Below, one piece after another: positions 18,152-43,165 of a DNA stretch of 43,215 nt. The position numbers and the translations under genes are program-made. This stretch comes from a virus, in IMG/VR virus record IMGVR_UViG_3300019884_000002, positions 1 through 43,215 of that record. One strand, written 5' to 3'. Under the pieces are notes generated by a model that was given only the letters and a program-made list of their open reading frames with translations, ran no database searches and was not told where the DNA came from. The first letter of the stretch is position 1. Every line of letters starts with the position of its first letter.

Positions 18152-18170
18152 TTCGATCTCCTCTACGAGT

Positions 18171-18199
18171 ATTGTATCACAGAGCCGCGAGCGATGCAC
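18171..18199 (-). promoter_or_regulatory. extended -10 promoter before the DUF6011-like gene
   Basis: Minus-strand TGATACAAT: TACAAT at 18176-18171 with TGn directly upstream, and GTGCAT 17 bp further up (18199-18194). The same CTGTGATACAAT block occurs before the 18493-18792 gene. Predicted start near 18164, 13 nt before the ATG. Confidence 0.55.
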
Positions 18200-18427: not shown

Positions 18428-18442
18428 GACGTGCTCCTCTGA

Positions 18443-18476
18443 CACCGAAAGCCCGCGCGATGCGGGCTAGTCGGTG
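18443..18476 (-). terminator. hairpin after the 18493-18792 gene
   Basis: Two-part stem: CACCGA/TCGGTG outside and AGCCCGC/GCGGGCT inside with a 5-nt loop, in the 65-nt gap between the stop at 18493 and the WGR start. The U-run is weak (TTT within the stem). It may be a partial terminator or mRNA-stability element. Confidence 0.55.
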
Positions 18477-19149: not shown

Positions 19150-19352
19150 GCGATTTAACGCGAGATCGCGCGCGCCTGCGAGGGTTACTACGCAGCGAAA
19201 AAGAATGCGTTAGATCGCAGCTACGTGCGAAATACGCTATGCGAGTCCGACACTCACCCTCCCCCCTATAGTGTGAACGCGATGGCACGGGAAAAGCGCT
19301 TCGCATTCGTTCTTTCGATCGATGGCGTGGAATCGATTTCGGTCGCACGTCG

Positions 19353-19381
19353 TTGCCATTGCCCTTGTGCTGTGGGATAAT
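19353..19381 (+). promoter_or_regulatory. promoter directly before the topoisomerase start
   Basis: TTGCCA (19353-19358), exactly 17 bp, GATAAT (19376-19381) with TGn before it. The predicted start falls at 19388, the A of the topoisomerase ATG, so the transcript would be leaderless. Confidence 0.65.
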
Positions 19382-19387
19382 AAGGTC

Positions 19388-27620: not shown

Positions 27621-27820
27621 TCGAAGTGACGGTAGGAGGCCACGCCCACTGCGCGATCTGCCAACGCGATATTGAGGTCGGGGAAGAGCTCGTCATTCTT
27701 CACCTCGGTAAGACGGAGTGGGATCCCTCGAAACAGGAACAGGTCATCCTCGACGTCCGCACGCGCATCGCGCACAAGATGTGCTTCGAGGAAGTCGATC
27801 CGGAGTTGATACTCACGTGA
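27617..27820 (+). CDS. small zinc-binding protein
   Basis: 67 residues, ATG at 27617 (ATGA overlap). HAHCAICQRDIEVGEELVILHL and a later C in HKMC fit a zinc site of LIM/PARP-finger-like layout (CxxC...HxxC). Role unknown. Confidence 0.58.
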   Translation: MIEVTVGGHAHCAICQRDIEVGEELVILHLGKTEWDPSKQEQVILDVRTRIAHKMCFEEVDPELILT

Positions 27821-28284
27821 TCCGACGCCCACAGAAAATCATCTCCGGAGGACAAACCGGAGCCGACCAGGGTGGCATCTGGGGTGCCGCTGAGTGCGGG
27901 ATCCCTACTGGCGGCGTCATGCCGAAAGGCTTCCGGACGGAGGACGGGCCGAACCCCGAGTTCGCCCGGATCTTCGGGTTGACCGAGCACTCGTCGTCGG
28001 AGTACCCTCCGCGCACAAGCGTCAACGTGCAGACGTCCGATGGCACCGTCGTCTTCGGGCGAACACATGAACGCGGTTCGCAACTCACGATTCGCCTGTG
28101 CGAACAGTACGGGCGTCCCTACATCCTGAACCCCGATGCGGAGCGCCTCCGTGCATTCATCATCCGCGAGAGCATCAAGACCCTGAACATCGCCGGGAAC
28201 CGGGAGTCGAAGAACCCCGGAATCGGGAAACACGTCCAGCAAACCATCATGGAAGCTTTCACGGAGCCGCAGCATGACGCCTGA
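27817..28284 (+). CDS. SLOG-type putative molybdenum-carrier (YpsA-like) protein
   Basis: 155 residues, GTG at 27817 (overlap with TGA). KIISGGQTGADQGGIWGAAECGIPTGGVMPKGFRTEDG is the diagnostic start of the putative molybdenum carrier / YpsA-like group of the SLOG superfamily; later RTSVNVQTSDGTVVFGR and SQLTIRLC complete the Rossmann-like pocket. The family is named after an MPT-cofactor carrier, but SLOG proteins bind nucleotide-derived ligands and occur in conflict systems; the function in phages is unsettled. It is the best-defined enzyme-like gene in this stretch of microproteins. Confidence 0.82.
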   Translation: MIRRPQKIISGGQTGADQGGIWGAAECGIPTGGVMPKGFRTEDGPNPEFARIFGLTEHSSSEYPPRTSVNVQTSDGTVVFGRTHERGSQLTIRLCEQYGRPYILNPDAERLRAFIIRESIKTLNIAGNRESKNPGIGKHVQQTIMEAFTEPQHDA

Positions 28285-29597: not shown

Positions 29598-29624
29598 GTC
29601 AACGCGCACATGGAAAGGACGTCG

Positions 29625-30317
29625 ATGAAAACAGTGGTCCTGCTCTCGGGTGGACTGGACTCCACTACTGTTCTTGCACATGCTCTCTATCTCGGGCACA
29701 CCGCTCACGCAGTGATCGTCGACTACGGGCAACGCCACCGCCGCGAGCTTCGTTCGGCCGACGAGATCGCCTGGCACTACAAGGTCCCGACGTCACACGT
29801 CGCGATCGATCCGATGGCGTTCGCCGGCGCCGACTCCTCGCAGGTCGGTCAGATGAAATCCGTTCCTCACGGCCACTACGCCGCTCCCAGCATGAAGACG
29901 ACAGTCGTCCCCAACCGGAACATGATCCTGATCGCACTCGCCGGAGCGGTCGCGGAGTCGGTCGGCGGCGACGAAGTCTGGTACGCTGCTCACGCTGGTG
30001 ATCATCCAATCTACCCCGACTGCCGTCCGGAGTTCGCGCTCGCGGCAGGCCTCGCGCTCTTCCTCGGCACAGTCAAAGGGATCCGGATGGAGGCTCCCTT
30101 CGTTCGCCTGACGAAGACCGATATCGCTCGCCGTGCAATCCAACTCCACGTGCCGGTCGAACTCACATGGTCGTGCTACGACCCGCAGCTGGACGAACAC
30201 CCGGTCGATGATCATCCCACCGACGTCATTCACTGTGGCCTCTGCGGGACATGCGTTGAACGCCGCGAAGCCTTCCGGGAAGCTGGACTCACCGACCCCA
30301 CGGAGTACGCGCGGTGA
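29625..30317 (+). CDS. queC: QueC, 7-cyano-7-deazaguanine (preQ0) synthase
   Basis: 230 residues; ATG at 29625 chosen for the AAAGGA site five nucleotides upstream (an ATG 15 nt earlier exists). PP-loop SGGLDS at residues 8-13, VDYGQRHRREL, VPNRNMILIALAGAVAES, then the zinc site C184...C204-x2-C207-x2-C210 at the C-terminus (CYDP...HCGLCGTC). It converts 7-carboxy-7-deazaguanine with ammonia and two ATP to preQ0, in the cytoplasm. The length is normal and all motifs are intact. First of five 7-deazaguanine genes here; preQ0 would be the base inserted into DNA unless another enzyme changes it. Confidence 0.93.
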   Translation: MKTVVLLSGGLDSTTVLAHALYLGHTAHAVIVDYGQRHRRELRSADEIAWHYKVPTSHVAIDPMAFAGADSSQVGQMKSVPHGHYAAPSMKTTVVPNRNMILIALAGAVAESVGGDEVWYAAHAGDHPIYPDCRPEFALAAGLALFLGTVKGIRMEAPFVRLTKTDIARRAIQLHVPVELTWSCYDPQLDEHPVDDHPTDVIHCGLCGTCVERREAFREAGLTDPTEYAR

Positions 30318-31006
30318 TCTCCCTCACCTGGTGGGAATATGACGAGCTCCTCGAGCATCTCCACAACCGTGAAGACATCTGGACGCAGTCGGAAGAGAAC
30401 CCCCTTCTCTGGATGCGTAGCATGGGCGACGAAGCGTGCTGCGCGGTGCTCGTCACTCCTCCAGCGAATCCAGATGCCCCGTACCGACAATACCAGGCGT
30501 CATCGATTCCCATGGCATGGGACGAAGAGAAGTCTGGGAAGTACCTCATCGACCTGGCTTCTCACTGGACTACCTACGGTCATCGCATGGCCGTCGAGAA
30601 GCTCCTGCTCGAAGAGCTCAAGCTTGACGGCGAGACGGCAGCGTTGATGGCGATCGCAATCGAATCCTTCGACTGGATCGACGTCGCGGAGCCCGAGGAG
30701 AAGACGGACATGCATCCGGTCTTCGTCGACCCGCTCGAACGGAAGACGCACATCGGAACGTATCTCCTCTCCGGCGGCGGGTGGGCTAAGCTCACTCTTC
30801 TCGGCGGAATGATCCGCGTCGCGATGTCGCTCCCGAACAAGGACTCCGGAGGCTTCGCTCACCCGTTCGAAGGCTTCGTCCGACCGAAGCACGGACGGGT
30901 CGAGGAAGCTGCCGCCGCCCTTGCCGGATGGGAAGTCAAGTGGCGCCCGCGCGAGATCCCCGACGGACCCCAACAACTCAAGCTCCCGAAGGAAGGTGTG
31001 GCGTGA
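30314..31006 (+). CDS. unrecognised protein between queC and nuclease
   Basis: 230 residues, GTG at 30314 overlapping the queC stop. Mixed alpha/beta, Trp-rich start (ISLTWWEYDELLEHLHNREDIWTQSEENPLLWMRSMG) and an acidic middle, with a C-terminal KWRPREIPDGPQQLKLPKEG. No known motif. By context it belongs to the replication/modification operon. Confidence 0.6.
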   Translation: MISLTWWEYDELLEHLHNREDIWTQSEENPLLWMRSMGDEACCAVLVTPPANPDAPYRQYQASSIPMAWDEEKSGKYLIDLASHWTTYGHRMAVEKLLLEELKLDGETAALMAIAIESFDWIDVAEPEEKTDMHPVFVDPLERKTHIGTYLLSGGGWAKLTLLGGMIRVAMSLPNKDSGGFAHPFEGFVRPKHGRVEEAAAALAGWEVKWRPREIPDGPQQLKLPKEGVA

Positions 31007-32040
31007 ATCCGAATATGATCCTTCCGGCGTGGGCGCTCGACATCGCACAGAAGTGGGCGGACATCCTCCACGTCTCGAAGCAGTGGCCCATCATCCTGAA
31101 CCAGTCGTCGTTCAAGGACTTCATGAACTGCCAACGGCTCTACGCCTGGAAGCGGTTGCAGCAATTGGAACCCGTCGGCAAGCGCAGCGCGCTGGAGATC
31201 GGAACTGCGACGCACGCAGGGCTCGCTCACATCCACTCCGGGAACTCCGTTGAGAGTGGTGTCGCCGTCGCTGTCAAGAAGCTCACAGAGCGTGCAGGAC
31301 CCAAGCTCGCGTTCGAGGACAAGGCCCTTCCGGAAGCACAGCTCATTGTCGAGACCCTCATTCCCGCCTACGTCGCCAACTACGAGAAGACGGGAGAGAT
31401 ATGGACGCCCCTCAACCAGGAGATCGAGTTCATGGTTGAAGTCGGGGAAGACAGCAACGTCTACCTCCGAGGCAAGGCCGATAACCTCTCCACAGCGAAG
31501 GGCGGGTTGTACCTCGTCGACTACAAAACCGCAGGCAAGCTCGATCCTCGGGACCTCCTGAAGTATGAACTCGACGTGCAGCTGTCGGCGTACATCTACG
31601 GGTTAACCAAACACCTGACGGAAGAGTCCATCCGTCGTGGCGGCGAACCAGTCTTCATCCGGGGAGCCATCATCGACGTCCTCGTGAAGACGAAGGTCCC
31701 GCAGTTCGCGAGGGACTTCTTCACCCGGACCCTCGACGAGCTCCAGGAGTTCGAGGACGAGTGGATCGAAGTCAACAACCGGATCCGCGTCCAGCACGCT
31801 CGCGTCGCCGCAGGCGAAGACTGGAAGATTGTCTTCCCACGGAACACGGAACACTGCTTCCGGTACGGGACATGCCCCTTCCGTGACGTCTGCATGAAGG
31901 ACACACCCGTACGACGCGCCCTCTACAACAAGCGGAAGCCCGACTACGTTGACGAGGCCTACGCTCTACTCTCTGGGGAGGCTACGCCGTCGGCTCCTCA
32001 GTCGAAACCCGTTGACGGCACAGGAGAAGTGAAACCATGA
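31003..32040 (+). CDS. PD-(D/E)XK nuclease, Cas4/RecB-like with Cys cluster
   Basis: 345 residues, GTG at 31003 (overlap); ATG at 31015 is an alternative. RecB-type motifs: GTATHAG (H71), RGKAD (D160), LVDYKTA (D173, K175), then Q193...Y197. Four Cys suited to a 4Fe-4S cluster: C43 (NCQRLYAWK), and C285, C291, C297 (HCFRYGTCPFRDVC), as in Cas4 and AddB-type nucleases. Likely a DNA exonuclease acting with the recombination genes after it (an ATPase and a DUF669-like protein). A Cas4 role in CRISPR is unlikely since no array or Cas1/2 is present. Confidence 0.82.
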   Translation: MNPNMILPAWALDIAQKWADILHVSKQWPIILNQSSFKDFMNCQRLYAWKRLQQLEPVGKRSALEIGTATHAGLAHIHSGNSVESGVAVAVKKLTERAGPKLAFEDKALPEAQLIVETLIPAYVANYEKTGEIWTPLNQEIEFMVEVGEDSNVYLRGKADNLSTAKGGLYLVDYKTAGKLDPRDLLKYELDVQLSAYIYGLTKHLTEESIRRGGEPVFIRGAIIDVLVKTKVPQFARDFFTRTLDELQEFEDEWIEVNNRIRVQHARVAAGEDWKIVFPRNTEHCFRYGTCPFRDVCMKDTPVRRALYNKRKPDYVDEAYALLSGEATPSAPQSKPVDGTGEVKP

Positions 32041-32204
32041 ACCGTGAAGAGCTCGCCAAGGAAGTGTCGGAGTTCATCCTCAACAAGGAGGATGGTCTGG
32101 AAGTCGATGACGAGAGCGACATCGACCTCGAGGAAGCCGCGCCGAAGATCAGCAACTTCGTCGAGGAACTCCAGAACGCGAACGACGACGAACCCGAGAG
32201 CTAG
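32037..32204 (+). CDS. 55-residue acidic protein
   Basis: ATG at 32037 (ATGA overlap), stop TAG at 32202-32204. Asp/Glu-rich (DDESDIDLEEAAPKISNFVEELQ), helical, basic residues only near the N-terminus. May mimic DNA or act as an adaptor for the nuclease before it; function not known. Confidence 0.55.
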   Translation: MNREELAKEVSEFILNKEDGLEVDDESDIDLEEAAPKISNFVEELQNANDDEPES

Positions 32205-33041
32205 ATGGCAACCGCGCCCACTCTCCCGAAGCTTTCCCGCACCACCGAGCTCAAGGCCTCGTTCGGCACTGTGCTCGGCTACGGTCCTGCCGGTGCGGGA
32301 AAGACTCGGTCTATCCGCACGTTGAAACTCGGCGGAATGGAGCCGCTCATACTCGCTTGTGAACTCGGCGAGACGCACGGGCTCCTATCGCTGGCTTCCG
32401 ACGACATCCCGTACATCCCGTTCAAGACCCACCAGGACTTGATCGAGATATGTCGGGCTCTGAAATCGAAGCCGAAGAAAATCGAATACGACGGTACGGA
32501 GTTCGGTTCCGTCGTGCTCGACTCGATCACCCAGTGGGGCGAGATGCCACTTGAACGGTTCATGGCAATCAAGGGCTGGACCGACCTCCACGATCCCACA
32601 TCGAAGGGCGACGGGAAAGACCCTCGCGGTGCGTACGGATTCCTCGCTGAGAAAGGCCGTCAGGTCTACAAAGAGCTCTTCGAGCTGCACGGCCACTTGT
32701 ACATCATCGCAAGGGAAGGACTCTTCGGAGGACAAGACGGGGAACCGATCTTTGCAGCCCCCGAGCTCCCAGGCCAGAAGCTCCCTCGCGAACTCCCAGG
32801 ATGGCCGGATGCGACAATCCGTCTCCGCGTCATCGCCGGGAAGTATCGGATGATCACGAAGGGAGAGGGCGGAAGCCCTGCTCGCGTTCGTCTTCCCGAA
32901 GCTTTCCCGACGTTGCCGCTCCGGTGCAATCCCGACATCGCTGCCTTGATTCGCTACATGCTCGGCGACAAGTCGCAGCTCGCGATTCTCGACCCGAAGG
33001 ACCCGGCGCAGGCTAGCTCGGCCGAACCGGCGAAGAAGTAA
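32205..33041 (+). CDS. Sak4-like / RecA-type P-loop ATPase
   Basis: 278 residues, ATG at 32205 directly after the previous TAG. Walker A GPAGAGKT at 27-34, Walker B FGSVVLDSITQ near 103, sensor region further on; C-terminal tail rich in Ala/Pro/Lys. Family of phage ATPases annotated as nucleotide-binding or Sak4-like single-strand annealing proteins, often followed by an SSB- or DUF669-type gene, as here. Likely recombination or replication loading. The pairing with the preceding nuclease resembles exo/annealase modules. Confidence 0.8.
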   Translation: MATAPTLPKLSRTTELKASFGTVLGYGPAGAGKTRSIRTLKLGGMEPLILACELGETHGLLSLASDDIPYIPFKTHQDLIEICRALKSKPKKIEYDGTEFGSVVLDSITQWGEMPLERFMAIKGWTDLHDPTSKGDGKDPRGAYGFLAEKGRQVYKELFELHGHLYIIAREGLFGGQDGEPIFAAPELPGQKLPRELPGWPDATIRLRVIAGKYRMITKGEGGSPARVRLPEAFPTLPLRCNPDIAALIRYMLGDKSQLAILDPKDPAQASSAEPAKK

Positions 33042-33068
33042 CCCGTACGTTCGATAGGAGACAGTCAC

Positions 33069-33491
33069 ATGGTTCAGATCCCGAATGCGCACCGCGTTGG
33101 CGACATGCCAGCGGGCGGAACAGTCATCCCCGAAGGCGTGTACCACGTGCGCCTCGACAAGGCCGTCTACAAAGAGGCCAAGAAGACGAAGACCCCGATG
33201 GCCGAGGTCACGTTCACCATCTTCGGTCCGGAAGAAGCCGAGGAGTTCCACGGTCGGAAGCTCTTCGACAACCTCATGCTCGCCGGCGACGGTGAGTTCC
33301 GCACGCGGCAGCTCCTGGAAGCCTCCGGTGAGAACGAGGACTTCATCCTCGAAGACACCGAGCAGCTCCTGCTGCGCGAGGTCAAGGTGGTCGTGACGAC
33401 CGAGAAGGAACGGATCGATCCCGACACCAAGCAGACGTACCCGGAGCGGAGCAAGATCACCCGCTACATGTCGCTCGAAGAAGCGGTTTAG
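33069..33491 (+). CDS. DUF669-like protein, probable ssDNA-binding partner
   Basis: 140 residues, ATG at 33069 after ATAGGAGACAG. IPEGVYHVRLDKAVYKEAKKTKTPMAEVTFTIFGPEEAEEFHGRKLFDNLML fits the DUF669 pattern (G.Y...I......G...L...F.I..G...GR.L....), an OB-fold-like family linked to phage recombination ATPases. Acidic C-terminus as in ssDNA-binding proteins. Followed by a strong hairpin, so a transcript end may lie here. Confidence 0.65.
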   Translation: MVQIPNAHRVGDMPAGGTVIPEGVYHVRLDKAVYKEAKKTKTPMAEVTFTIFGPEEAEEFHGRKLFDNLMLAGDGEFRTRQLLEASGENEDFILEDTEQLLLREVKVVVTTEKERIDPDTKQTYPERSKITRYMSLEEAV

Positions 33492-33496
33492 TCGAC

Positions 33497-33537
33497 TGGA
33501 CGGAAGGGCGGCACTCCCAGCTTCGCCCTTCCGTCCA
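33497..33537 (+). terminator. long perfect hairpin, terminator-like
   Basis: 14-bp perfect stem TGGACGGAAGGGCG / CGCCCTTCCGTCCA with a 13-nt loop, six nucleotides after the stop. There is no U-rich tail, so termination would be partial or factor-dependent; it may also protect the 3' end of the upstream message. Confidence 0.55.
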
Positions 33538-33559
33538 CCATTCAGATTGGAGACTCGAC

Positions 33560-33907
33560 ATGGCTGCACAGAACAAGAAACACCGTCTCGCCTCAGGCGT
33601 GACCCGCTCGGAGCAGGCTCCGGCGTACCACCTCGTTCCGACGTCAGGACTTCGTCGGACGGCCAAGCGCTTTGGTCTTGGCGCTGAAGTCCACGGCGCG
33701 GAGAACTGGCTCAAGGGCCTGCGCACGGAAAAGGACGCTCGCGTCTTCTGCGAGGAGGCCTTCAACCACATGCAGGAGCACATCCAGAAGATGTCGGCCG
33801 GCCACGAACCGGAAGACGATCACCTCGGCGCCATCGGCTGGGCGCAGAGCGTCCTTGCCCACGCCGAGGAACTCTTCGAGAAGCCCTGGCGGGAGATCGG
33901 TCGATGA
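33560..33907 (+). CDS. dATP/dGTP diphosphohydrolase-like protein
   Basis: 115 residues, ATG at 33560 with TTGGAGAC upstream. LVPTSGLRRTAKRFGLGAEVHGAENWLKG, HMQEHIQKMSAG and EPEDDHLGAIGWAQSVLAHAEELF match the pattern of the dATP/dGTP diphosphohydrolase N-terminal family (DUF5664 / PF18909): GA.KY....NW.KG ... H...H......G...DDHL.A..W....L.H.E. Related proteins are thought to adjust dNTP pools in phages with unusual bases. Substrate choice cannot be read from the sequence. Confidence 0.68.
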   Translation: MAAQNKKHRLASGVTRSEQAPAYHLVPTSGLRRTAKRFGLGAEVHGAENWLKGLRTEKDARVFCEEAFNHMQEHIQKMSAGHEPEDDHLGAIGWAQSVLAHAEELFEKPWREIGR

Positions 33908-34098
33908 TCATCATCAAGACGAACGAGGGTAAGCACGTACTCCTCGAGGCTCGTCTCTGTACGAGAAGCACTGAAGCTCACTCCGCAGCGACGGAGAAGA
34001 AGTTCGACCTCGAACAGATCCTGGCGAAGGCAATTGCCGACGTCGCCGCGAAGATTGACTTCGACGCCATGGTCGAAGCCCACATGAAGGGGAAGTGA
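33904..34098 (+). CDS. small unknown protein
   Basis: 64 residues, ATG at 33904 (ATGA overlap). Helical, basic N-terminus and a C-terminal DLEQILAKAIADVAAKIDFDAMVEAHMKGK. Sits between the diphosphohydrolase-like gene and queD. Confidence 0.55.
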   Translation: MIIIKTNEGKHVLLEARLCTRSTEAHSAATEKKFDLEQILAKAIADVAAKIDFDAMVEAHMKGK

Positions 34099-34532
34099 TG
34101 GTCACGATCACGACGAAGAGAGAAGTTCCGATCGGCCACCGCCTTCTCGGTCACAACGGCCGCTGCGCGTACCTTCACGGTCACAACTACACGTTCGAGG
34201 TGTCAGTCATCGGCACACCGAACGAGATCGGGTTGGTCATCGACTTCAAAGACGTCAAGAAGGTCTTGGACGATCTACTGGACATCTTCGACCACGCGAT
34301 GATCCTGAACAAGGAGGACCCGTCGATCGAGGTGCTTCGTCTCGAACGCCTCGTCGTCCTGTCGGTCAACCCGAGCGCCGAGAACCTGGCGTCGCTGGTG
34401 TTCAACCATCTCACGGAAAAGCTGAACTCGCCGTCGGCGAAGATCGCGCGAGTCCTCTGCCGCGAGACCGAAGACGGTTGGGCCGCTGCGATCAAACCGG
34501 ATCCGTCGGTGTTCATCCTGCACACGCACTGA
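34098..34532 (+). CDS. queD: QueD, 6-carboxytetrahydropterin synthase
   Basis: 144 residues; ATG at 34098 (TGATG overlap; GTG at 34095 is possible). Zinc ligands H14, H27 and H29 and the catalytic Cys C23 within GHNGRCAYLHGHNY, D65-H66 in FDHAMILN, and Glu in PSAENLA. It converts dihydroneopterin triphosphate to 6-carboxy-5,6,7,8-tetrahydropterin. The catalytic Cys in this position separates QueD from 6-pyruvoyl-tetrahydropterin synthase. Full-length and intact. Second step of 7-deazaguanine synthesis. Confidence 0.92.
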   Translation: MVTITTKREVPIGHRLLGHNGRCAYLHGHNYTFEVSVIGTPNEIGLVIDFKDVKKVLDDLLDIFDHAMILNKEDPSIEVLRLERLVVLSVNPSAENLASLVFNHLTEKLNSPSAKIARVLCRETEDGWAAAIKPDPSVFILHTH

Positions 34533-34533
34533 C

Positions 34534-34860
34534 ATGGTCGAATCAAACGCTCTCATGTGCGAACACGCGAACGAGGTGCCTGTCGTCTGTACGTGTCCGC
34601 AGGACTGCTACTGTCGGACGCACACGTGCAAGCTTCGTTCGCGTGAAGGCGACCAACCGCTCCCAACGGTGAACACCCATCCTGCAATCCAGGATCTGGT
34701 CATCCGCGACATGGAGGAGAGGAAAGCCGTAGGCCTCGAACGCTACGGCACTCTCCTCCAACCTCACAACGGACGCGACGTGCTCGTCGATCTCTACCAA
34801 GAGCTCCTCGACGCGTGCATGTACATCCGCCAGACCCTCTACGAGCGAGATGGGAAATGA
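34534..34860 (+). CDS. phage protein with MazG-like C-terminal part
   Basis: 108 residues, ATG at 34534, one base after the queD stop. A Cys/His-rich start (MCEHANEVPVVCTCPQDCYCRTHTC) suggests a zinc ribbon. The second half HPAIQDLVIRDMEERKAVGLERYGTLLQPHNGRDVLVDLYQELLDACMYIRQTLYERDG is common in phages and resembles all-alpha NTP pyrophosphatases (E..D....). Possible nucleotide-pool enzyme; not shown by sequence alone. Confidence 0.62.
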   Translation: MVESNALMCEHANEVPVVCTCPQDCYCRTHTCKLRSREGDQPLPTVNTHPAIQDLVIRDMEERKAVGLERYGTLLQPHNGRDVLVDLYQELLDACMYIRQTLYERDGK

Positions 34861-35231
34861 ATACCGACGCCAGTCCCGGCCCCGTCTTCACCGCAATCAT
34901 CCAGCAGGTGCGCGGCTCCAAGATCATTATGGAAGCGCTTCCCCACGAGATCGCACGGCTCGGGATCGTGGACGGTGACTCCGTGGCCGCCGCGAAGGCG
35001 ATGCTGAGTAATCCCTTTCCACTCGGGCCTCTGTCATACGATCCGAGGTACACCCTCTACAACGCAAGCGGTGTTCCCGTCGCCATGCTTCGGAGTTATG
35101 GTTGCGACTCGACGCCGATCGACGTGACGACTCACGGTGATCCAAATCCTAGATACATTCTAGGCGTCCCTCGTATTCGGGCGATGGAAGTGTCGCCTCT
35201 CCCAGGAGCAACACATTGGTTGACACGATGA
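34857..35231 (+). CDS. unknown protein before queE
   Basis: 124 residues, ATG at 34857 (overlap). N-terminal alpha/beta segment (SPGPVFTAIIQQVRGSKIIMEALPHEIARLGIVDGDSVAAAKAML), then an extended C-terminal half. No motif recognised. Confidence 0.55.
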   Translation: MNTDASPGPVFTAIIQQVRGSKIIMEALPHEIARLGIVDGDSVAAAKAMLSNPFPLGPLSYDPRYTLYNASGVPVAMLRSYGCDSTPIDVTTHGDPNPRYILGVPRIRAMEVSPLPGATHWLTR

Positions 35232-35941
35232 AATACCAGATCGCGGAACGGTTCAAGTCTCTCCAAGGCGAGGGCGTCTTCGCCGGCACACCGATGGCCT
35301 TCATCCGATTCGTCGGGTGCTCCGTCGGAAAGAAAATCTGTCAGCACTGCGACACGACGTTCGAGCGGGTGCTCCCGTGGCAGGGCGGTGGAGAGTACAC
35401 ACCCGAGGAACTCGCAGACTGGTCCCGCCCGTACGAACACATCTGCCTCACAGGTGGTGAGCCGATGGATCAGAATCTCGAGCCGCTCATCGCTGCAATG
35501 AGACCACCTGACGGGCATGGTCCCGGACCAATGATCCACGTTGAGACCTCCGGGACGAAGCCTTTCGACTTCCCCGAAGGCTCCTTCTGGATCTGTGTTA
35601 GTCCGAAGCCGGGATTCCGCGAGGACATGGTTGCAGCGGCAGACGAGGTCAAGGTCATCGTGCCTGGTCTCGGCGAACTAAACTCCAAGGTCGAAGAGGC
35701 GAAGCTCGCGGAGCTGCCTTCGGAAGAGGGGGTACGAATCATCAAGGCGGGCGGCCTCCGCTGGCCTGACGTCCACGACGCAATCCGTTGGGCGAAGGCA
35801 GGGAAGACCGTCTTCCTGCAGCCGCGCAACGGTCGAGTGGAGATCGACAAAGTCAACCTGATGATCGTGATGGACCTCCTTAAGGACCATCCCCAGCTGC
35901 GTCTTTCCACGCAGCTGCATAAGATCCTGAAGGTGCAGTGA
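35228..35941 (+). CDS. queE: QueE, 7-carboxy-7-deazaguanine synthase (radical SAM)
   Basis: 237 residues from the ATG at 35228 (overlaps the previous stop; a TTG at 35216 would add four residues). SLQGEGVFAGTPMAFIRFVGC with C31, then C38 and C41 (C-x6-C-x2-C, the 4Fe-4S site), DTTF, and CLTGGEPMDQN (the GGEP SAM motif). HVETSGTK and SPKPG follow, typical of QueE. It converts carboxytetrahydropterin to 7-carboxy-7-deazaguanine. The family shows several Cys spacings; this one is within that range. Third step of the pathway. Confidence 0.92.
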   Translation: MKYQIAERFKSLQGEGVFAGTPMAFIRFVGCSVGKKICQHCDTTFERVLPWQGGGEYTPEELADWSRPYEHICLTGGEPMDQNLEPLIAAMRPPDGHGPGPMIHVETSGTKPFDFPEGSFWICVSPKPGFREDMVAAADEVKVIVPGLGELNSKVEEAKLAELPSEEGVRIIKAGGLRWPDVHDAIRWAKAGKTVFLQPRNGRVEIDKVNLMIVMDLLKDHPQLRLSTQLHKILKVQ

Positions 35942-36258
35942 TGGACCAGCCTCTCATCGAGCCCTCACACATGTGTCAGTTGCACCAACGTCTCCTCGTG
36001 CAGCAGGCGGGGTACTCGGAGCAGGATACGTGGCGAGCACTGATCATCGTTTCACAAATCGTGCTCTTCCAGGGCGCGACGTGTGATCCCGCTACCCACG
36101 AGAAGCTCGGAGGAGACATTACACGCATCCGTGAACTCGGCTGCCTCGCTTGCTACAAACCGGATAGATTCGGTGAGATCGTCGAAGCGGCGAAGACGCA
36201 TGACCTCGGTGTGATCAAAGCTCTCGGCTTACGCTGGATCGCTGAAGCGGAGAAGTAG
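35941..36258 (+). CDS. small helical phage protein
   Basis: 105 residues, ATG at 35941 (TGATG overlap with queE). Helical with HMCQLHQRLLVQQAGYSEQDTWRALIIVSQIVLFQGATCDPATHEKLGGD and a CLAC pair; common in phages, function unknown. Confidence 0.6.
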   Translation: MDQPLIEPSHMCQLHQRLLVQQAGYSEQDTWRALIIVSQIVLFQGATCDPATHEKLGGDITRIRELGCLACYKPDRFGEIVEAAKTHDLGVIKALGLRWIAEAEK

Positions 36259-36260
36259 CG

Positions 36261-36521
36261 ATGACAAAGATCCCTACTCCTCTCACGATGAAGTCGGATG
36301 ACGACGACAACGTCGACGCCTTCATCGCCGAGATCGAAGAGATGTTTGGGGATCCTCGCTACGAGTGGGCAAGGAAGACTTTGGACCCCATCTACGATTG
36401 GACTGTCGGGAACCGTCGGTTCACTCCAAACATGAAGCAAGCGATTAAGAACATCCGCGAGCGTGTCGAAGGAACGTCGGAGAAGAAAACCTGGAAGCGT
36501 CGATACGAAGGGCACTTATGA
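36261..36521 (+). CDS. small unknown protein
   Basis: 86 residues, ATG at 36261. Acidic N-terminus (KSDDDDNVDAFIAEIEEMFGDPRYEWARKTLDPIYDWTVG), then basic KQAIKNIRERVEGTSEKKTWKRRYEGHL. Contains aromatic and charged helices; a possible DNA- or protein-binding role is not proven. Confidence 0.55.
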   Translation: MTKIPTPLTMKSDDDDNVDAFIAEIEEMFGDPRYEWARKTLDPIYDWTVGNRRFTPNMKQAIKNIRERVEGTSEKKTWKRRYEGHL

Positions 36522-36934
36522 AGATCATCGACCCCGGTCACGTCTACGACCTCAACTGGCTCGATGGCAAGCCGAACGACTACGGCGACGCGGAGATTTT
36601 CGCACAAGAGAAGATCGATCCGCAGAACCGGTTGACGTTCGTCAAGCGCAAAGGACCGAAGTACCCCGGCAACACCGATGCTCATCTTGGAACGACAATG
36701 CAGGAAGTCCTCCGCGCCGTCATCGACCGACTGAAGTACGTCAACAAACAAGAGCCGCACGGATCAAACGATGTGACTCTCAAGCACCTACGGTCTGCCA
36801 TCTACTCCCTCGAACTCCGTGCAGCGCTGCGGGCAGGTCGCGACGCAGCTCCGCTCGGTCACTACTCTTGCATCGAGCGCGCCGCCACCTGCTCCACATG
36901 CGGCCACATCAACTGCTCCGGCCATGGCAAGTGA
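36518..36934 (+). CDS. conserved phage protein with C-terminal zinc knuckle
   Basis: 138 residues, ATG at 36518 (ATGA overlap). MKIIDPGHVYDLNWLDG ... LTFVKRKGPKYPGN ... GTTMQEVLRAVIDRLKYVNKQ is a signature met in many phages; the C-terminus CIERAATCSTCGHINCSGHG is a zinc knuckle. Function unknown. Confidence 0.62.
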   Translation: MKIIDPGHVYDLNWLDGKPNDYGDAEIFAQEKIDPQNRLTFVKRKGPKYPGNTDAHLGTTMQEVLRAVIDRLKYVNKQEPHGSNDVTLKHLRSAIYSLELRAALRAGRDAAPLGHYSCIERAATCSTCGHINCSGHGK

Positions 36935-37283
36935 GACCGCTCGTGAAATCCGCCGCGCCAACGAACAGTGTGCGAGGTGTGGAACGGCGTCACCCTTCTA
37001 TCGCTGCGACACATGCAAGACAACCCACAACGAACGAGAGAGACGACGTTATGCACTGGGACTTCGAATGCACCTCCCCCGATTGCGACTTCGTGGAAGA
37101 CCGGTCCTTCCCGTCATACGCCGTGATGAAGGAGACCGTCCTGCGGTGCCCTCATCACGGGACGAAGTTGTCAATCAGACACTCTGTACCGGGCGTGCGT
37201 ATCGTCCCGGGTACGTCGAAACGAATCTGGAGAGAGGGCTCGAAGCGGATCGAAGTCACTCTCCCCGACAACACGACCATTGA
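36924..37283 (+). CDS. zinc-finger protein with abnormal read-through frame
   Basis: The ATG at 36924 opens a 119-codon frame. The first 43 residues (RRANEQCARCGTASPFYRCDTCKTTHNERERRRY) look like a real C2-C2 zinc-finger microprotein. The remaining frame runs on through the whole next gene in another frame and looks like random Arg-rich sequence. At the junction (CGTTATGCAC) a single missing A would explain loss of a TAATG stop/start. So the native gene may have ended near 37050; the long form is doubtful. Confidence 0.4.
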   Translation: MASETAREIRRANEQCARCGTASPFYRCDTCKTTHNERERRRYALGLRMHLPRLRLRGRPVLPVIRRDEGDRPAVPSSRDEVVNQTLCTGRAYRPGYVETNLERGLEADRSHSPRQHDH

Positions 37284-37296
37284 CGACTTCGCGTAG
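37051..37296 (+). CDS. small zinc-ribbon protein
   Basis: 81 residues, ATG at 37051. CTSPDC and CPHHG form a zinc ribbon; MHWDFECTSPDCDFVEDRSFPSYAV start and DNTTIDDFA end are those of a compact phage microprotein. Immediately precedes folE. Confidence 0.62.
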   Translation: MHWDFECTSPDCDFVEDRSFPSYAVMKETVLRCPHHGTKLSIRHSVPGVRIVPGTSKRIWREGSKRIEVTLPDNTTIDDFA

Positions 37297-37306
37297 GAGA
37301 TACACA

Positions 37307-37852
37307 GTGAACCGTACTAAGATGACAAAGGCCATCGCCCTTCTCCTTGACGGGATGGGCATCCCAAACTGGCGAGAGGACCCGAACTTCCGCGACACGC
37401 CTGGTCGCGTGGCCAAAATGTTCGAAGAAATGTTGACCCCGGAGAAGAACACCTGGACGGCGTTCCCGGCGAAGTCCGCCGACCTAATCATCGTGAGGGG
37501 CCACGGTGTGATCGCTCTGTGCCCTCACCACCTCCAGCCCGTCGAGATCACAGCGTATGTCGGGTACATCCCGAACAAGATGACGGTGGGGATCTCGAAG
37601 CTCGCCCGCGTCGTCGAAGAACAACTCACCGTTCCGATGATGCAGGAGGATCTCGCATCTCGTGTCGCAGACGCCGTCGAGGCGAAGCTCGAACCCAAGG
37701 GCACCGGTGTCGTCCTCTCTGGCATCCACGGGTGCATGAAGTTCAGGGGCGTCGAGTCTGAATCGGACACCGTCGTCTCCGTGATGAGGGGAGTGCTGCT
37801 CCTCAACCCGACGGCACGAACGGAGTTTCTCCAACTGATAGGGAGGCCGTGA
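37307..37852 (+). CDS. folE: FolE, GTP cyclohydrolase I
   Basis: 181 residues, GTG at 37307 with AGGAGATACACA upstream. FRDTPGRVAKMFEEML, then GHGVIALCPHHLQPVEITAYVGYIPN (C72, H75 zinc ligands), MTVGISKLARVVE, and SGIHGCMKFRGVES (C143 zinc ligand). It opens the guanine ring of GTP to give dihydroneopterin triphosphate, the entry to pterins and to 7-deazaguanines. In this context it supplies QueD. It is type IA (zinc, CPHH), not FolE2. Catalytic residues intact. Confidence 0.93.
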   Translation: MNRTKMTKAIALLLDGMGIPNWREDPNFRDTPGRVAKMFEEMLTPEKNTWTAFPAKSADLIIVRGHGVIALCPHHLQPVEITAYVGYIPNKMTVGISKLARVVEEQLTVPMMQEDLASRVADAVEAKLEPKGTGVVLSGIHGCMKFRGVESESDTVVSVMRGVLLLNPTARTEFLQLIGRP

Positions 37853-38172
37853 TGACACCGGAAAACTACGCTCGGTTCGTTGACGTGATGGGGATTCGTC
37901 CTCGGCTCTCCTATGACCTCGACTGCTCGCTCGCCTCAATGGGAATCGCCGGCGAGATGGGCGAGATGATCGACGTGGTGAAGAAGACTGTCTTCCACCA
38001 GCTCCCTCTCGATCGCGAGAAGTTCATTGAGGAAGCAGGCGACGGTCTCCACTACTTCATCCAGATGCTGAACGCGAACGGCGTCACGCTCCAAGAGGTC
38101 ATCGACGGCAACGTCACGAAGCTCCAGAAGCGTTATCCCAACGGATGGGTCCCTGGCGGCGGCATTCGATGA
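37852..38172 (+). CDS. MazG-like nucleotide pyrophosphohydrolase
   Basis: 106 residues, ATG at 37852 (TGATG overlap). CSLASMGIAGEMGEMIDVVKKTVFHQLPLDREKFIEEAGDGLHYFIQMLNANG follows the MazG/all-alpha NTP-PPase pattern: E-x2-E...K and E-x2-D acid pairs (GEMGEM, EEAGD). It would hydrolyse (d)NTPs to monophosphates plus pyrophosphate. Lies between folE and the polymerase with overlaps on both sides. Substrate unknown. Confidence 0.78.
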   Translation: MTPENYARFVDVMGIRPRLSYDLDCSLASMGIAGEMGEMIDVVKKTVFHQLPLDREKFIEEAGDGLHYFIQMLNANGVTLQEVIDGNVTKLQKRYPNGWVPGGGIR

Positions 38173-40646
38173 ACGAGGAGAACCCATACAACAAGCCAGA
38201 CGAGTGTCTGGTCTGTCCTCTTCTCAAGGAGCCGGGACCCGTCTGGGGAGATGGCAACCGCAATGCGAAGATCATGTACCTCGGCGAAGCTCCTGGAGCC
38301 GAGGAAGTCGACTGGCCACGGCACCGTCCGGAACGCTTCAAGCCGTTCATCGGTGGAGCAGGACGTATTCGCAATGCGCTACTCCAGCACGCCGGGATCG
38401 ATAAGAAGGTTCACCTGTGGACGACGAACTCCGTCAAGTGCCGTCCGCCGAACAACCGCCTCCCGACTGACGGTGAGGTGGCGTGTTGTGCCCAACACCT
38501 AGTCAAGGAGATCGAGGATGTCAACCCGAACGTCATCATCGCGGCGGGTGAGCTCGCGCTCAACGTCCTCACCGACCACAAGAAGATCGGACTCTGGCGA
38601 GGCGTCCCTACCACAGGCCCCAAGCTCGGAGAGCGCACCTACAAAGTCTTCCCGATGTGGCACCCCGCCTTCATCATGCGAGCCCAGCACAACTGGCCGT
38701 TCGCAGTCCATGACTTGGTTCGAGCGAAGGCTCAAGGCGACTTCCCGGACATCCAGCGTGTACCGATCAACATTGTCCGTGATGCGAGCGTCACGACTCA
38801 TGGAGGCGATCTGCTTCGAGCTGCTCGAGAGCGGGGCGCCGCTACGTTCGACTTCGAAACGTCCGGGCTCTCTGCAAGCACAGGTCAGATTCTCATGTGC
38901 GGCTTTGTCGCGAGGCCAGACCAGGGTCTCGTGTTCGATTGGACCGTTGGTGCTCAACAGCTCTTCGAGCAAGTTCTTGCAGATCCTGCCATCGAAGTCG
39001 TCGGTCAGAACATACTCACGTTCGACATCCCGTTCGCGGAAGACAAAGGCCACAAAGTAAGATGGGACCGCATCTTCGATACGATGGTCGTTTTCCATCT
39101 GTGCAACTCGTCGTATGGTCAGACGTCGGTCAGTGCACAGAACGCCGGCAAGTTCCAGGGAGCACGCGGCGCCGAGAAGGATCTCTCGATGATCGCGTCG
39201 TGTCACACCGACATCGAGTATTGGAAGTCGAAGGAGAACTACAAGGGCGACCTCCGTGGCGTCTGCGGTCTCGACTGCATTGCAACTGATCGCTCCGCTC
39301 TCCACCCGCAGGACGGTCTCAAGAAGGAACTCGAGACCTACGGTATGACGTCGCTCTACTACGATCACGTGCTCCCCGTCCACGAGATCATGCATAGGAT
39401 GTCACGCCGTGGGGTGAAGATCGACATCGACAAAGCTCTCCGCTGGGCAGTCGTCCTCGAAGAGAAAGCCAACGAGCTCGAGGCGATCCTGAAGGAAGGT
39501 CTCGGCGACCCGTTCCTCAATCTCGAATCCCCTCAGCAGCTCATGGGACTGCTCTACGACAAGATGCAGTTGCCTGAACAGTTCCTGATGGACAAGAAGC
39601 GGGGACGTCGTCGCACCGCCAACGCCGAGGCGATCGAAAACCTCGCCACGATGTTCCCTGAGCACGCCGTGCTTCGTACGATCGTGGACATCAGGTACTG
39701 CCGAAAGATGAAGTCGACGTTCATCGAACCTGCACTCATGGGCGACGGTCACATCCACCCTCGCTTCGGAGTAAGCAAAGCTAGCAACGGTCGGTTCAAT
39801 TCCTGGAGCCCCAACGCACAGAACGTGCCAGAAGAGATGCGTGACATCTGGATTCCGGATTCCGACGACCACATCCTCATCTCGGCGGACTCCTCGCAGA
39901 TCGAATGGCGCAACGCGATGATCCTTTCCGGCGACGAGGTCGGACTCAAGATGCTTGCTGCCGGCGTCGACAACCACCGTGCGGTCGCTGCGGAGACTCT
40001 CGGCAAACGGATCGAGGACATCACCGACGACGAACGTCATGCCGCGAAGTTCATCATCTACGGTCTCGGCTATGGCCGTGGCGCCGAGAGCATTGCCAAG
40101 GGCCACAACCTGGACTTCAACTTCGTCTCGAAGTTCATCGGATCCTTCTTCTCCCGCTTCCACGAGTTCAGTGAGTGGCGAAACGACCTCGCCCCGTTCG
40201 TGAAGGACAACCACTACCTCGCGAACCCTTGGATGCGACGCCGTTGGTGGTTCACCCGGGAGATCACGGAGATCTATAACTTCCCAGCGAGCTCCTGTGC
40301 CGCCGACATGATGATCGACGAACTGATCCTCATCAACTCGCAGCTACCGAAAGACGCTACGCTCCGCCTGACGGTCCACGACGAAGTCGTCGTCAACGCC
40401 GCGAAGGACGTTGCCCGCGAAGCAGCGACGTGCATCCGCGACTGCATGCAGCGTACGTGGCCAAAGATGGTTGAAGCATCTCGGCGACCGGAGGTCGTCA
40501 AGAAGTACTACCCGAATGGATGGTTCTGCCCAGCAGACGTCCACCTCGGTCTGAACTGGAAGATGTGCAAGTCCAAGGACCCAGCAGATAAAATCGCCCG
40601 CGCTGAACTCGAACAGAGCTTCGGCCTCAAGGGAGGGATATCGTGA
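38169..40646 (+). CDS. uracil-DNA glycosylase / 3'-5' exonuclease / family A DNA polymerase fusion
   Basis: 825 residues, ATG at 38169 (ATGA overlap; an upstream in-frame ATG at 38145 lies in the previous gene). Residues 1-200: UDG family 4 domain with C13-x2-C16, GEAPG (39-43), PFIGGAGR, KCRPPNNRLPT (C91), C106/107 and a WHPAF motif (164-168), so the 4Fe-4S ligands and active-site motifs are intact. About 218-400: exonuclease with FDFET (D228/E230) and GQNILTFDIPF (D286). About 410-820: polymerase with motif A ADSSQIEWRN (near 574), motif B RHAAKFIIYGLGYG, motif C VHDEV (near 737). SPO1-type phage polymerases show the same UDG fusion (conserved-domain group UDG-F4 TTUDGA/SPO1 type). Main replicative polymerase. 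Confidence 0.92.
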   Translation: MNEENPYNKPDECLVCPLLKEPGPVWGDGNRNAKIMYLGEAPGAEEVDWPRHRPERFKPFIGGAGRIRNALLQHAGIDKKVHLWTTNSVKCRPPNNRLPTDGEVACCAQHLVKEIEDVNPNVIIAAGELALNVLTDHKKIGLWRGVPTTGPKLGERTYKVFPMWHPAFIMRAQHNWPFAVHDLVRAKAQGDFPDIQRVPINIVRDASVTTHGGDLLRAARERGAATFDFETSGLSASTGQILMCGFVARPDQGLVFDWTVGAQQLFEQVLADPAIEVVGQNILTFDIPFAEDKGHKVRWDRIFDTMVVFHLCNSSYGQTSVSAQNAGKFQGARGAEKDLSMIASCHTDIEYWKSKENYKGDLRGVCGLDCIATDRSALHPQDGLKKELETYGMTSLYYDHVLPVHEIMHRMSRRGVKIDIDKALRWAVVLEEKANELEAILKEGLGDPFLNLESPQQLMGLLYDKMQLPEQFLMDKKRGRRRTANAEAIENLATMFPEHAVLRTIVDIRYCRKMKSTFIEPALMGDGHIHPRFGVSKASNGRFNSWSPNAQNVPEEMRDIWIPDSDDHILISADSSQIEWRNAMILSGDEVGLKMLAAGVDNHRAVAAETLGKRIEDITDDERHAAKFIIYGLGYGRGAESIAKGHNLDFNFVSKFIGSFFSRFHEFSEWRNDLAPFVKDNHYLANPWMRRRWWFTREITEIYNFPASSCAADMMIDELILINSQLPKDATLRLTVHDEVVVNAAKDVAREAATCIRDCMQRTWPKMVEASRRPEVVKKYYPNGWFCPADVHLGLNWKMCKSKDPADKIARAELEQSFGLKGGIS

Positions 40647-41377
40647 TCAAGCTCGCAATGGAAATTCCAACGTCACACCTTGCTACGTGGTCGCCGCTCA
40701 CTGACTTCGACTTCGCACTCGCGCATAAGGTTCTGGAAGACCCAGCCGTCGCCCGCTTCTACGCGGAGCGGTCCGGAAGCCGTGAACTCATTCTCGACAA
40801 CTCGATGCATGAACTCGGCTACCCGTTGCCCGTGAAGGAGCTCGCACGAGCCGCCGACCTCTGTCGAGCCGACTACGTCATCGCTCCGGATCAACTCAAG
40901 CAGCCAGACCAGAACCTTGCATGGTTCGAGGACACGGTCAACGAGATCGCCGGCCACCACAAAGTCGCTGTTGTGCACTGCGGACCGACTCCTGGGATCC
41001 GACAGAAGTACTTCACCCGTGTCGCTGCTCGCGCCGACATGCTCTGCCTCCCCTTCCGCGAGAACCGAATGCTCTGGTGGGCAGAGATCGATCGTCAGCA
41101 ACTTGACTTCCCCTGTCTCCGTCGCGTACACCTCCTCGGCGTGAACGACCTCGCGGAGCTGTACGTGTTCGCCCGGCTCTCCATGCGCGACGCGGAGTGG
41201 TCTGTCGACACCTCGAAGCCAATCAAGTGGGCGATTGAAGACCGTCACATCGGCGACGGGTTTGACATCCGTGGAGCGAAGACGACGTCCCACGCCCTGC
41301 TCGACGCGAAGCTCACGACGCCACAAGTCGCGTTGATGATCCGGAACCTCGAACACTTACGTGCATACTTGGTATGA
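40643..41377 (+). CDS. dpdA: DpdA-like 7-deazaguanine DNA transglycosylase
   Basis: 244 residues, GTG at 40643 overlapping the polymerase stop, GGGAGG upstream. Features of the phage DpdA branch of the TGT family: LDNSMHELG (51-59), a YVIAPDQL segment (79-85, with D83), VVHCGPTPGI, VHLLGVNDL (162-170), WSVDTSKP (D189). It exchanges guanine in DNA for a 7-deazaguanine base made by FolE/QueD/QueE/QueC. It is shorter than tRNA TGTs, and the C-terminal zinc motif of TGT is not seen, as usual in phage DpdA. The target site or extent of modification cannot be told. Confidence 0.87.
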   Translation: MIKLAMEIPTSHLATWSPLTDFDFALAHKVLEDPAVARFYAERSGSRELILDNSMHELGYPLPVKELARAADLCRADYVIAPDQLKQPDQNLAWFEDTVNEIAGHHKVAVVHCGPTPGIRQKYFTRVAARADMLCLPFRENRMLWWAEIDRQQLDFPCLRRVHLLGVNDLAELYVFARLSMRDAEWSVDTSKPIKWAIEDRHIGDGFDIRGAKTTSHALLDAKLTTPQVALMIRNLEHLRAYLV

Positions 41378-42783
41378 CGAAGATCCCACAAGCATCGGAA
41401 GCGTCTGCCACACGCAAGCAGACGATCGGTCAGCGGATCTCGCAGATCATGACGATGCTTCAACAACTGCCGCGTGAGCGGGCGACGCCAGAACTCTTCC
41501 TAGAGATCATAGGTTGGGTTCAGACTCTGCCTGCGGAACAACGGCCTGACGTACTCGTATCCACCATCGCGCAGGCCTTCGACAAGACCATCGAGGAGAT
41601 GGACATCATCCTGAAGCCGGTCAACCGACGGGTGGAGTTCGATTCCCTCGTTCCGAAGGAAGGTTGGATCCAGGACTACGTCAACTGGACTCGGAACACG
41701 GAGCCTCCAACAGTGTTCCACTTCTTCGTTGCAGCGACGGTCATCGGCGCCGCTCTCGGCCGTAACGTCTACTTCGACAAAGGCGCGTATATGGTCTTCC
41801 CGAATTTGTGCGTCGTGATTGTCGCACCGACGGGGCGCTGTAGGAAGACCTCCGCCTGCAACATCGGAACGTCGCTCTACGCGAAGATAGGCGGAACACT
41901 CCTAGCGGACAAGGCGACGCCGGAAGCGATGTGCGAGGCGTTGAAGACACAGGCGAATGCCACGGGCTTAATATACGCTCCTGAGCTCGCGGTGTTCCTT
42001 GGGAAGCAGAAGTACCAGGAGGGTATGGTTCCTCTTCTCACAGCACTCTTCGATTGTCCAAAGGAATGGACTTCGAAGACGATCGGACGTGGAGAGACTA
42101 CTCTCACGAACGTCGCGCTAAGCAGTCTCATGTGCTCCACCATCGACTGGCTTCAAACCGGTATCCCGCGAGACGCCTTCGGTGGCGGCTTCATGTCGCG
42201 CTTCCTCTTCGTCGTGCAGGAGAACACGTCGCGTGTCTTCCCTCTTCCTCCAGCCCTCGACGCCGAGCGTCGGAAAGACCTCATCTCTCGCCTCGCGAAG
42301 TTCAAGAACCTGAAGGGTCCGATGGTCTTCACCGACGTCGCTCGCGAGTGGTACATCGCGTGGTATAAGACCCGTCCCTCGATGCAGGGTGAGAAGCAGT
42401 ATGCCGGGTACTACGAACGGAAGCCCGACCACCTTATCCGCATCGCGATCATCCTTGTCGTCTCTCGCGGTGACGGAAAAATGGAACTCACCGACGTGGA
42501 CCTCATGCAGGCGGAGAAAATCCTTCACTGGATGGAGATCTGGCTCCCGTCCACGTTCGAAGAAATGACCGCAAGCGCATCGGGTGAAGACCAAACGAGG
42601 ATTCTTCGGCAACTGAAGATGCACGGTGGCAGCATGGAGCACTCAACGCTTCTCCGCCGGAACTCCTCGAAGATGAATGCAGAGTCGTTCAAGCGAGCCA
42701 TCGGCACACTACGTGAAGCAAAGCTTCTTGAGTGGGACGCCGTGACTCGTACATACACATTGACCCCCGACGGATGGAAGTAG
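41374..42783 (+). CDS. DUF3987-like P-loop replication ATPase/primase-helicase-like protein
   Basis: 469 residues, ATG at 41374 (ATGA overlap). PNLCVVIVAPTGRCRKTSACN (P-loop around 151-160; the usual GK is RK, as in part of this family), IYAPELAVFLGKQKYQEGMVPLLTALFD, SSLMCSTIDWLQTGI...GGGFMSRFLFV, and a C-terminal winged-helix-like part. This is the DUF3987 layout, often next to replication genes and thought to act as a helicase or primase-helicase component. Directly downstream of dpdA in the replication operon. Confidence 0.78.
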   Translation: MTKIPQASEASATRKQTIGQRISQIMTMLQQLPRERATPELFLEIIGWVQTLPAEQRPDVLVSTIAQAFDKTIEEMDIILKPVNRRVEFDSLVPKEGWIQDYVNWTRNTEPPTVFHFFVAATVIGAALGRNVYFDKGAYMVFPNLCVVIVAPTGRCRKTSACNIGTSLYAKIGGTLLADKATPEAMCEALKTQANATGLIYAPELAVFLGKQKYQEGMVPLLTALFDCPKEWTSKTIGRGETTLTNVALSSLMCSTIDWLQTGIPRDAFGGGFMSRFLFVVQENTSRVFPLPPALDAERRKDLISRLAKFKNLKGPMVFTDVAREWYIAWYKTRPSMQGEKQYAGYYERKPDHLIRIAIILVVSRGDGKMELTDVDLMQAEKILHWMEIWLPSTFEEMTASASGEDQTRILRQLKMHGGSMEHSTLLRRNSSKMNAESFKRAIGTLREAKLLEWDAVTRTYTLTPDGWK

Positions 42784-42790
42784 GACACCC

Positions 42791-43165
42791 ATGATCGACT
42801 GGCTCTCAACCGCGATGAAGCTCGGGCACGCAGACGAAGAAGCAATGTGGAAGGCTCTCTACGAGAAGAGCTCCATTGCTGAACTGTCAACGCAGCTCGG
42901 CGTCTCACGAAACACGATCCGCCTCCGTCTCGTCAAGTGTGGTGTCGCATTCCGTGGACGCGGCGGGCCGAACAACAAACACACTGACGTCACTGACGAG
43001 CTCTTAGAAAAAGTGAAGCGCGAGGGCATCGCCGCCGTCGCGAAAGAGCTTGGGATCCAGTATTCAACTCTCTACAAGCGCATCTACCGGATCCGCGGGC
43101 TGAAGATCGCGGACCTCAAAGCGCCGACGCCGGAGCCTGAACCCCCGAAGGAAGACGAACCATGA
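42791..43165 (+). CDS. helix-turn-helix protein
   Basis: 124 residues, ATG at 42791. Two HTH-like units: SSIAELSTQLGVSRNTIRLRLVKCG (about 27-51) and GIAAVAKELGIQYSTLYKRIYRIRG (about 79-103), the same fold repeated; then a Pro/Glu-rich tail. Likely a DNA-binding or transcription-related protein, seen in many phages near replication genes. Confidence 0.72.
   Translation: MIDWLSTAMKLGHADEEAMWKALYEKSSIAELSTQLGVSRNTIRLRLVKCGVAFRGRGGPNNKHTDVTDELLEKVKREGIAAVAKELGIQYSTLYKRIYRIRGLKIADLKAPTPEPEPPKEDEP

Follow-up and report, generated by a model that had tools for sequence, protein, structure and literature searches.

FolE-QueDEC-DpdA modification of phage DNA has already been published, as the 'second group' of Hutinet 2019. 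In Mycobacterium phage Rosebush dPreQ0 accounts for about 28% of G and in CAjan for about 32%; in the latter, the loss of dpdA removes dPreQ0 and restores cutting of the DNA (PMC6884629). In the Campylobacter phages CP220 and CPt10, 100% of dG is replaced by dADG (PMC8306585, citing its ref. 19); Hutinet et al., having found no DpdA in phages of Campylobacter, suspected the incorporation of modified dGTP (PMC6884629). The conversions of CDG to ADG and of ADG to preQ0 are both performed by QueC (PMC13329287).

The sequence analyzed here (hereafter, the window) is a 43,215-bp IMG/VR virus contig (G000), which has no end repeats and whose left end truncates an ORF. Phage records searched with the window by megablast gave no match, and no close relatives were found in bacterial genomes; the bacterial matches were five distant ones only, all in MAG contigs, and thus no host was inferred. 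The clade related to the window consists of uncultured phages of roughly 45-62 kb. The computation covered the five pathway genes, the fold and conserved residues of DpdA, the gene order, and matches to QueF and class-II amidotransferase models. The window shares FolE, QueD, QueE, QueC and a DpdA homologue (gp056), as well as the absence of a QueF match, with CP220/CPt10, which differ in being T4-like, about 177 kb in size, with a polymerase of family B and pathway genes scattered along about 97 kb. With the Rosebush/CAjan type it shares FolE-QueD-QueE-QueC-DpdA, with no amidotransferase match in the window; these phages, unlike the window, have DpdA of the DpdA1 type, together with partial dPreQ0 (PMC6884629). 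As the preQ0 pathway is complete and a DNA-guanine transglycosylase is present, the reading as 7-deazaguanine DNA modification given in the original prediction was retained; it is highly probable that the phage encodes such a pathway, with DpdA exchanging guanine in DNA and the modified DNA evading restriction.

Genes for preQ0 synthesis and their arrangement

All four preQ0 synthesis enzymes are encoded in the window, on the plus strand. QueC (7-cyano-7-deazaguanine synthase; 29610..30317, 235 aa), with the SGGLDST loop and the C..CxxCxxC zinc site, scored 160.5 bits with TIGR00364, above the equivalog cut-off of 150.3, and E 6.7e-53 with PF06508; its start was placed at 29610, an inner ATG at 29625 being equally possible. 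QueD (6-carboxytetrahydropterin synthase; 34095..34532) matched PF01242 (E 3.7e-29) and phrog_2389 (E 3.8e-30), QueE (radical-SAM 7-carboxy-7-deazaguanine synthase; 35216..35941) matched TIGR04508 (E 8.6e-28) and phrog_2076 (E 1.4e-20), and FolE (GTP cyclohydrolase I; 37280..37852) matched PF01227 (E 7.2e-37) and NF006826 (E 1.1e-37). The scores of QueD, QueE and FolE were below the NCBI equivalog cut-offs, as expected with divergent phage proteins, and these three names therefore rest on the family matches, the context and the motifs. In the alignments with phage homologues, the active-site motifs of all four enzymes were intact, including the conserved Cys and HGH motif of QueD and the CPHH and HGCMxFRG motifs of FolE; the HMM matches and these alignments agree with what had been claimed for the four genes from the sequence. 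In the proposed pathway, FolE would convert GTP to H2NTP, from which QueD would form CPH4 and QueE CDG, and QueC would then convert CDG to ADG and further to preQ0.

The cluster motif of QueE in the window and in 17 clade relatives was GCSVGKK-I-C-xx-C, namely C-x6-C-x2-C and not C-x3-C-x2-C, and another cluster spacing (GCNLxCxWCDQPDT) was observed in L034, L035 and L038. A C-x14-C-x2-C spacing is a known QueE variant (PMC4389238), and no description of the C-x6 spacing was found in the literature.

The five pathway genes span about 11.8 kb and are interleaved with replication genes, all on the plus strand. QueC is overlapped by 4 bp by a gene for an unknown protein (30314..31006; no family match), which is kept in L008, L027 and L028. 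Then follow genes for a Cas4-like PD-(D/E)XK exonuclease (30928..32040; phrog_1218, E 5.3e-23), a Sak4-like AAA ATPase (recombinase/annealing; 32205..33041; phrog_124, E 4.3e-22; PF13479) and a DUF669 single-strand DNA-binding-like protein (33069..33491; PF05037, E 8.7e-5; phrog_378). Downstream of QueD and QueE, FolE is overlapped by 4 bp by the gene for a MazG-like pyrophosphatase (37849..38172; phrog_229, E 5.1e-25), and next comes a family-4 uracil-DNA glycosylase fused to a family-A DNA polymerase (UDG-PolA; 38145..40646), identified with HMMs (TIGR00758, E 7.6e-32, residues 23-193; NF004397, E 3.4e-65, residues 221-772). Beyond dpdA are the genes for a DUF3987 replication protein (primase/helicase-like; 41374..42783; PF13148, E 3.9e-14; phrog_14296, E 1.4e-38) and for a helix-turn-helix-like (HTH) protein (42791..43165; weak phrog matches), which adjoins the DUF3987 gene across the clade. 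At its start dpdA shares 4 bp with the end of the polymerase gene, and at its end 4 bp with the start of the DUF3987 gene; these overlaps suggest that dpdA may be translationally coupled with the replication proteins.

The order QueC - PD-(D/E)XK - Sak4 - DUF669 - QueD - QueE - FolE - UDG-PolA - DpdA - DUF3987 - HTH was found in 27 of the 28 loci with both UDG-PolA and DpdA (some of them near-duplicates, with 21 distinct DpdA sequences in the tree), when scored on whatever part of the gene order each locus holds. In the exception, L004, the listed ORFs depart from this order at FolE and DpdA, where the two stop-to-stop frames overlap. Of the 18 relatives' records, 16 contain QueC, and the other two are truncated some 7 kb upstream of dpdA. 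Because a whole phage clade has these five genes in one and the same order, the layout is more than chance. The scattering over about 12 kb described previously thus stands as to the span and the interleaving with replication genes, but the arrangement is neither random nor unique to the window: it is conserved in the uncultured clade, and the neighbourhood in Weizmannia phage Youna2 is comparable. Youna2 has PD-(D/E)XK, Sak4-like, DUF669, QueC, QueD, QueE, FolE, DpdA-like and PolA genes within 14 kb; it differs from the window in that QueC comes after the primase and the DpdA is distant, on a long branch, and for its polymerase the UDG-PolA model of the window was not the best match. In Mycobacterium phage CRB2, unlike the window, the genes form one compact block beside the terminase. 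The UDG-PolA fusion is retained throughout the clade, in its most distant members only as matches in pieces, and matches spanning both the UDG and PolA domains were obtained with the phages SBSphiC, Lebethron and Mel-JY34 (a Microcystis phage).

Identification and type of DpdA

The ORF at 40643..41377 (plus strand, GTG start, 244 aa) is predicted to encode DpdA, a DNA-guanine transglycosylase of the CP220 ('DpdA3') type. The ORF gave no match with the TGT models of Pfam and NCBIfam, and PF01702 (Pfam TGT), which detects 14 of 14 controls, had no match in the window; however, this model also misses the CP220 homologue and the Flavobacterium phage (immuto) homologue annotated as DpdA, and its miss is therefore uninformative. 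The sole family match of the ORF was phrog_19058 (unknown function; E 1.1e-6). With tblastn, homologues were found in CP220/CPt10 of Campylobacter (98% of the ORF covered), in the immuto phages of Flavobacterium, where the protein is annotated as a DNA guanine transglycosylase (80%), and in Youna2 (75%). A first profile, in which the window was joined by seven relatives from IMG/VR and three isolates, was compared with all PDB sequences, and the top match was a DNA-guanine transglycosylase, 7ui4, at a weak E of 0.03. The AlphaFold2 model built from a 52-row alignment (the window and IMG/VR relatives) had a pLDDT of 95.8 and the TGT/DpdA fold; a single-sequence model (pLDDT 37) was discarded. 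The top Foldseek match of the model was again 7ui4 ('DNA preQ0 insertase DpdA'; E 1.1e-6), and in the VIA structural alignment the 50 matches listed were all TGT, archaeosine TGT or DpdA (Z 16.4-17.1, approximately 220 residues; 16.5 for 7ui4). The 7ui4 protein, which we take to be the Salmonella DpdA, a bacterial enzyme of a restriction-modification island, has the same fold, and its HLLG and S-x-D segments align with the window DpdA, although it has 413-436 aa as against 244 aa and only 15-16% identity. On the basis of the relatives, the profile and the predicted fold, the window encodes a TGT-fold DpdA; the DpdA-like transglycosylase of the original prediction is thus supported, despite the lack of a TGT-model match, by the relatives, the CP220 profile, the AlphaFold fold and the Foldseek match.

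Eleven residues (E7, D52, N53, E57, P82, D83, H163, G166, E172, D189 and T190) were invariant in the 52 DpdA sequences. Read by motif order, D52 is the presumed general acid/base and D189 the presumed counterpart of the TGT nucleophile, which is Asp280 in Z. mobilis Tgt (PMC3660597). DpdA, a minimal 244-aa TGT-fold enzyme, would accordingly act on newly synthesized phage DNA, putting the deazaguanine base in the place of guanine through nucleophilic base exchange, with Asp189 as presumed nucleophile and Asp52 as general acid/base, and the modified DNA would escape host restriction; we infer the activity on DNA, the base exchange and the anti-restriction role. At residue 113, most CP220/immuto-type DpdAs have Gln (VVQG), and Cys is found in 9 of the 52 aligned sequences in all, the window among them; this change from Gln to Cys possibly alters base recognition.

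The fold is common to tRNA transglycosylases (Z about 17), and the substrate of the enzyme might be tRNA, which would boost the Q-tRNA of the host, or a protein, as for Cap10, a CBASS protein of the TGT family. We consider this highly improbable: the CxC..C zinc motif of tRNA TGTs is not visible in the window DpdA sequence, dpdA lies among replication genes clade-wide, no tRNA gene was found in the window, and the relative CP220 has modified DNA. PADLOC found no CBASS or defence partners among the ten proteins scanned, only QueC/QatC cross-matches. Action on DNA, the preferred reading, is also challenged by the possibility that modified dGTP is used by the phage polymerase, the TGT-like protein acting on a mononucleotide or something else. 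This route was proposed for Campylobacter phages (PMC6884629) when none of their DpdAs had been found, and the window dpdA does overlap the polymerase gene; it is nevertheless highly improbable, as CP220 encodes a homologue of the TGT-fold DpdA of the window, among solved structures a DNA transglycosylase is the nearest, and neither a kinase nor a phosphoribosyltransferase was found among the neighbours examined.

The 52-row profile aligned with CP220 gp056 (NC_027997, 54675-55451; labelled only as a hypothetical protein in RefSeq) over its full length in hhalign (prob 100, E 1.6e-47, 233 columns), the two DpdAs having 25% identity, and gp056 is clearly, judged from this alignment, a member of the DpdA family of the window. 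No homology was found by hhalign with the 9g DpdA1 (prob 1.1) or with the VH7D homologue (nt-1-type DpdA2; prob 0.4), and the profile of DpdA1 (9g, CRB2 and Iggy) gave bit scores of -0.4 to 8.0. The HVTV-1 candidate, which we take to be a DpdA4 (archaeal virus type), gave a prob of 6.8, and the local alignment, a weak one, takes in HLLG and S-x-D. By sequence, then, the window DpdA is of the CP220 type, and not of the DpdA1, DpdA2 or HVTV-1 type. The CP220 DpdA presumably belongs to the class 'DpdA3', a name from the study of Cui et al. 2023, in which this class was reportedly linked to complete guanine replacement.

In the tree of 55 DpdA sequences (no outgroup), the 21 from UDG-PolA loci, including the window, formed one group (100/100) on a long branch. 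The CP220 DpdA grouped with the sequences from QueF/formyltransferase loci (98/97), and a deep branch (100/100) parts the window clade from CP220; the branches of the Youna2 and Ahp1 DpdAs were very long and their placement is unsure. What is new here is an uncultured clade whose CP220-type DpdAs form a deep branch of their own, the conserved polymerase-DpdA-DUF3987 arrangement and the QueE motif variant.

Predicted base and extent of replacement

The models of QueF (PF14489), class-II amidotransferase (PF13522) and formyltransferase had no match in the window, in agreement with the earlier remark that no QueF or amidotransferase-fused QueC is visible; since the window is a fragment, a gene for tailoring may be located beyond its ends. 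QueF and formyltransferase were found in 0 of the 28 UDG-PolA/DpdA loci, and PF13522 (GATase_6) in none of the 18 relatives' records; among the other DpdA loci, QueF was found in 49 of 58 and a formyltransferase-like gene in 51 of 58. Sub-cutoff PF14489 scores in 2 of the 18 relatives were not taken as QueF, as they fall at FolE positions (same T-fold family), and the QueF-model match in Youna2 likewise falls on FolE; the QueF-model search of CP220 gave no match. The Flavobacterium phage immuto group has a dpdA near PolA whose product falls into the broad family of the window DpdA, and differs from the window in the QueF and formyltransferase-like genes near dpdA. In the uncultured immuto-like phages (L039-L093), dpdA is likewise near a formyltransferase-like gene and QueF, a gene content pointing to a preQ1-derived, possibly formylated, base.

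The bare gene set with the Rosebush/CAjan precedent predicts dPreQ0, and the CP220 precedent predicts dADG; we slightly favour dPreQ0 as the base. The inserted or final base may instead be ADG, if the QueC intermediate ADG is itself a substrate of DpdA, or if preQ0 is hydrated by an unrecognised enzyme, and to this we give roughly one chance in three. CP220, the nearest relative of the window DpdA with a measured base, has 100% dADG (PMC8306585), and convincing protein matches of the window or its clade with CP220 (the last 11.5 kb of which was covered by annotation only) were limited to FolE, QueD, QueE, QueC, DpdA and a PD-(D/E)XK nuclease. However, the window QueC is closer to the QueC of Mycobacterium phages (46-51% identity) than to that of CP220 (32%), and Rosebush, a Mycobacterium phage, carries dPreQ0 (PMC6884629). 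The plain preQ0 form had been called the simplest prediction. It stands insofar as dPreQ0 is slightly favoured, but the CP220-type DpdA brings dADG and complete replacement into consideration beside it; the rule behind that prediction rests on another DpdA type, that of 9g, Rosebush and CAjan.

As to the extent, dPreQ0 makes up about 28-32% of G in the known phages that carry the bare FolE-QueDEC-DpdA set (PMC6884629), and that dPreQ0 is here likewise partial and site-selective, in the manner of Rosebush or CAjan, has slightly less than an even chance; Rosebush and CAjan use DpdA1, with almost no sequence similarity to the window DpdA, and complete replacement is found in the CP220-type relative. 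Complete or near-complete guanine replacement was judged about as likely as partial replacement, that is, at about one half, because the deep split between the window clade and CP220 makes it an uncertain extrapolation. A broader proposal is that, immediately behind the replication fork, preQ0 or ADG takes the place of every guanine in the genomes of the clade, DpdA working alongside the UDG-PolA and DUF3987 products of the overlapping genes, with the residue-113 change and the C-x6-C-x2-C motif of QueE as marks of a distinct pathway variant; this combination is speculative and rather unlikely as a whole.

Wider occurrence and other genes of the window

The range of CP220-type DpdA is extended from large Campylobacter and Flavobacterium phages to a clade of uncultured phages of about 45-62 kb, and its very short DpdAs offer material for the questions of replacement density (about 30% vs 100%) and of the choice between preQ0 and ADG. 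If the replacement is complete, the phage DNA would resist many restriction enzymes, and methods relying on DNA cutting or enzymatic handling may under-sample such phages.

Elsewhere in the window, we observed the catalytic core of a type IB topoisomerase (19322-20152; PF01028, E 2.5e-14), which is unusual in a phage, a circularly permuted YpsA (SLOG) protein (27718-28284; PF12694, E 1.1e-34) and an A1S_2505-family phage protein (23325-23966; E 1e-37). A stand-alone WGR-domain protein (18212-18445) is encoded beside a DUF6011 zinc-ribbon-like protein (17477-18199).
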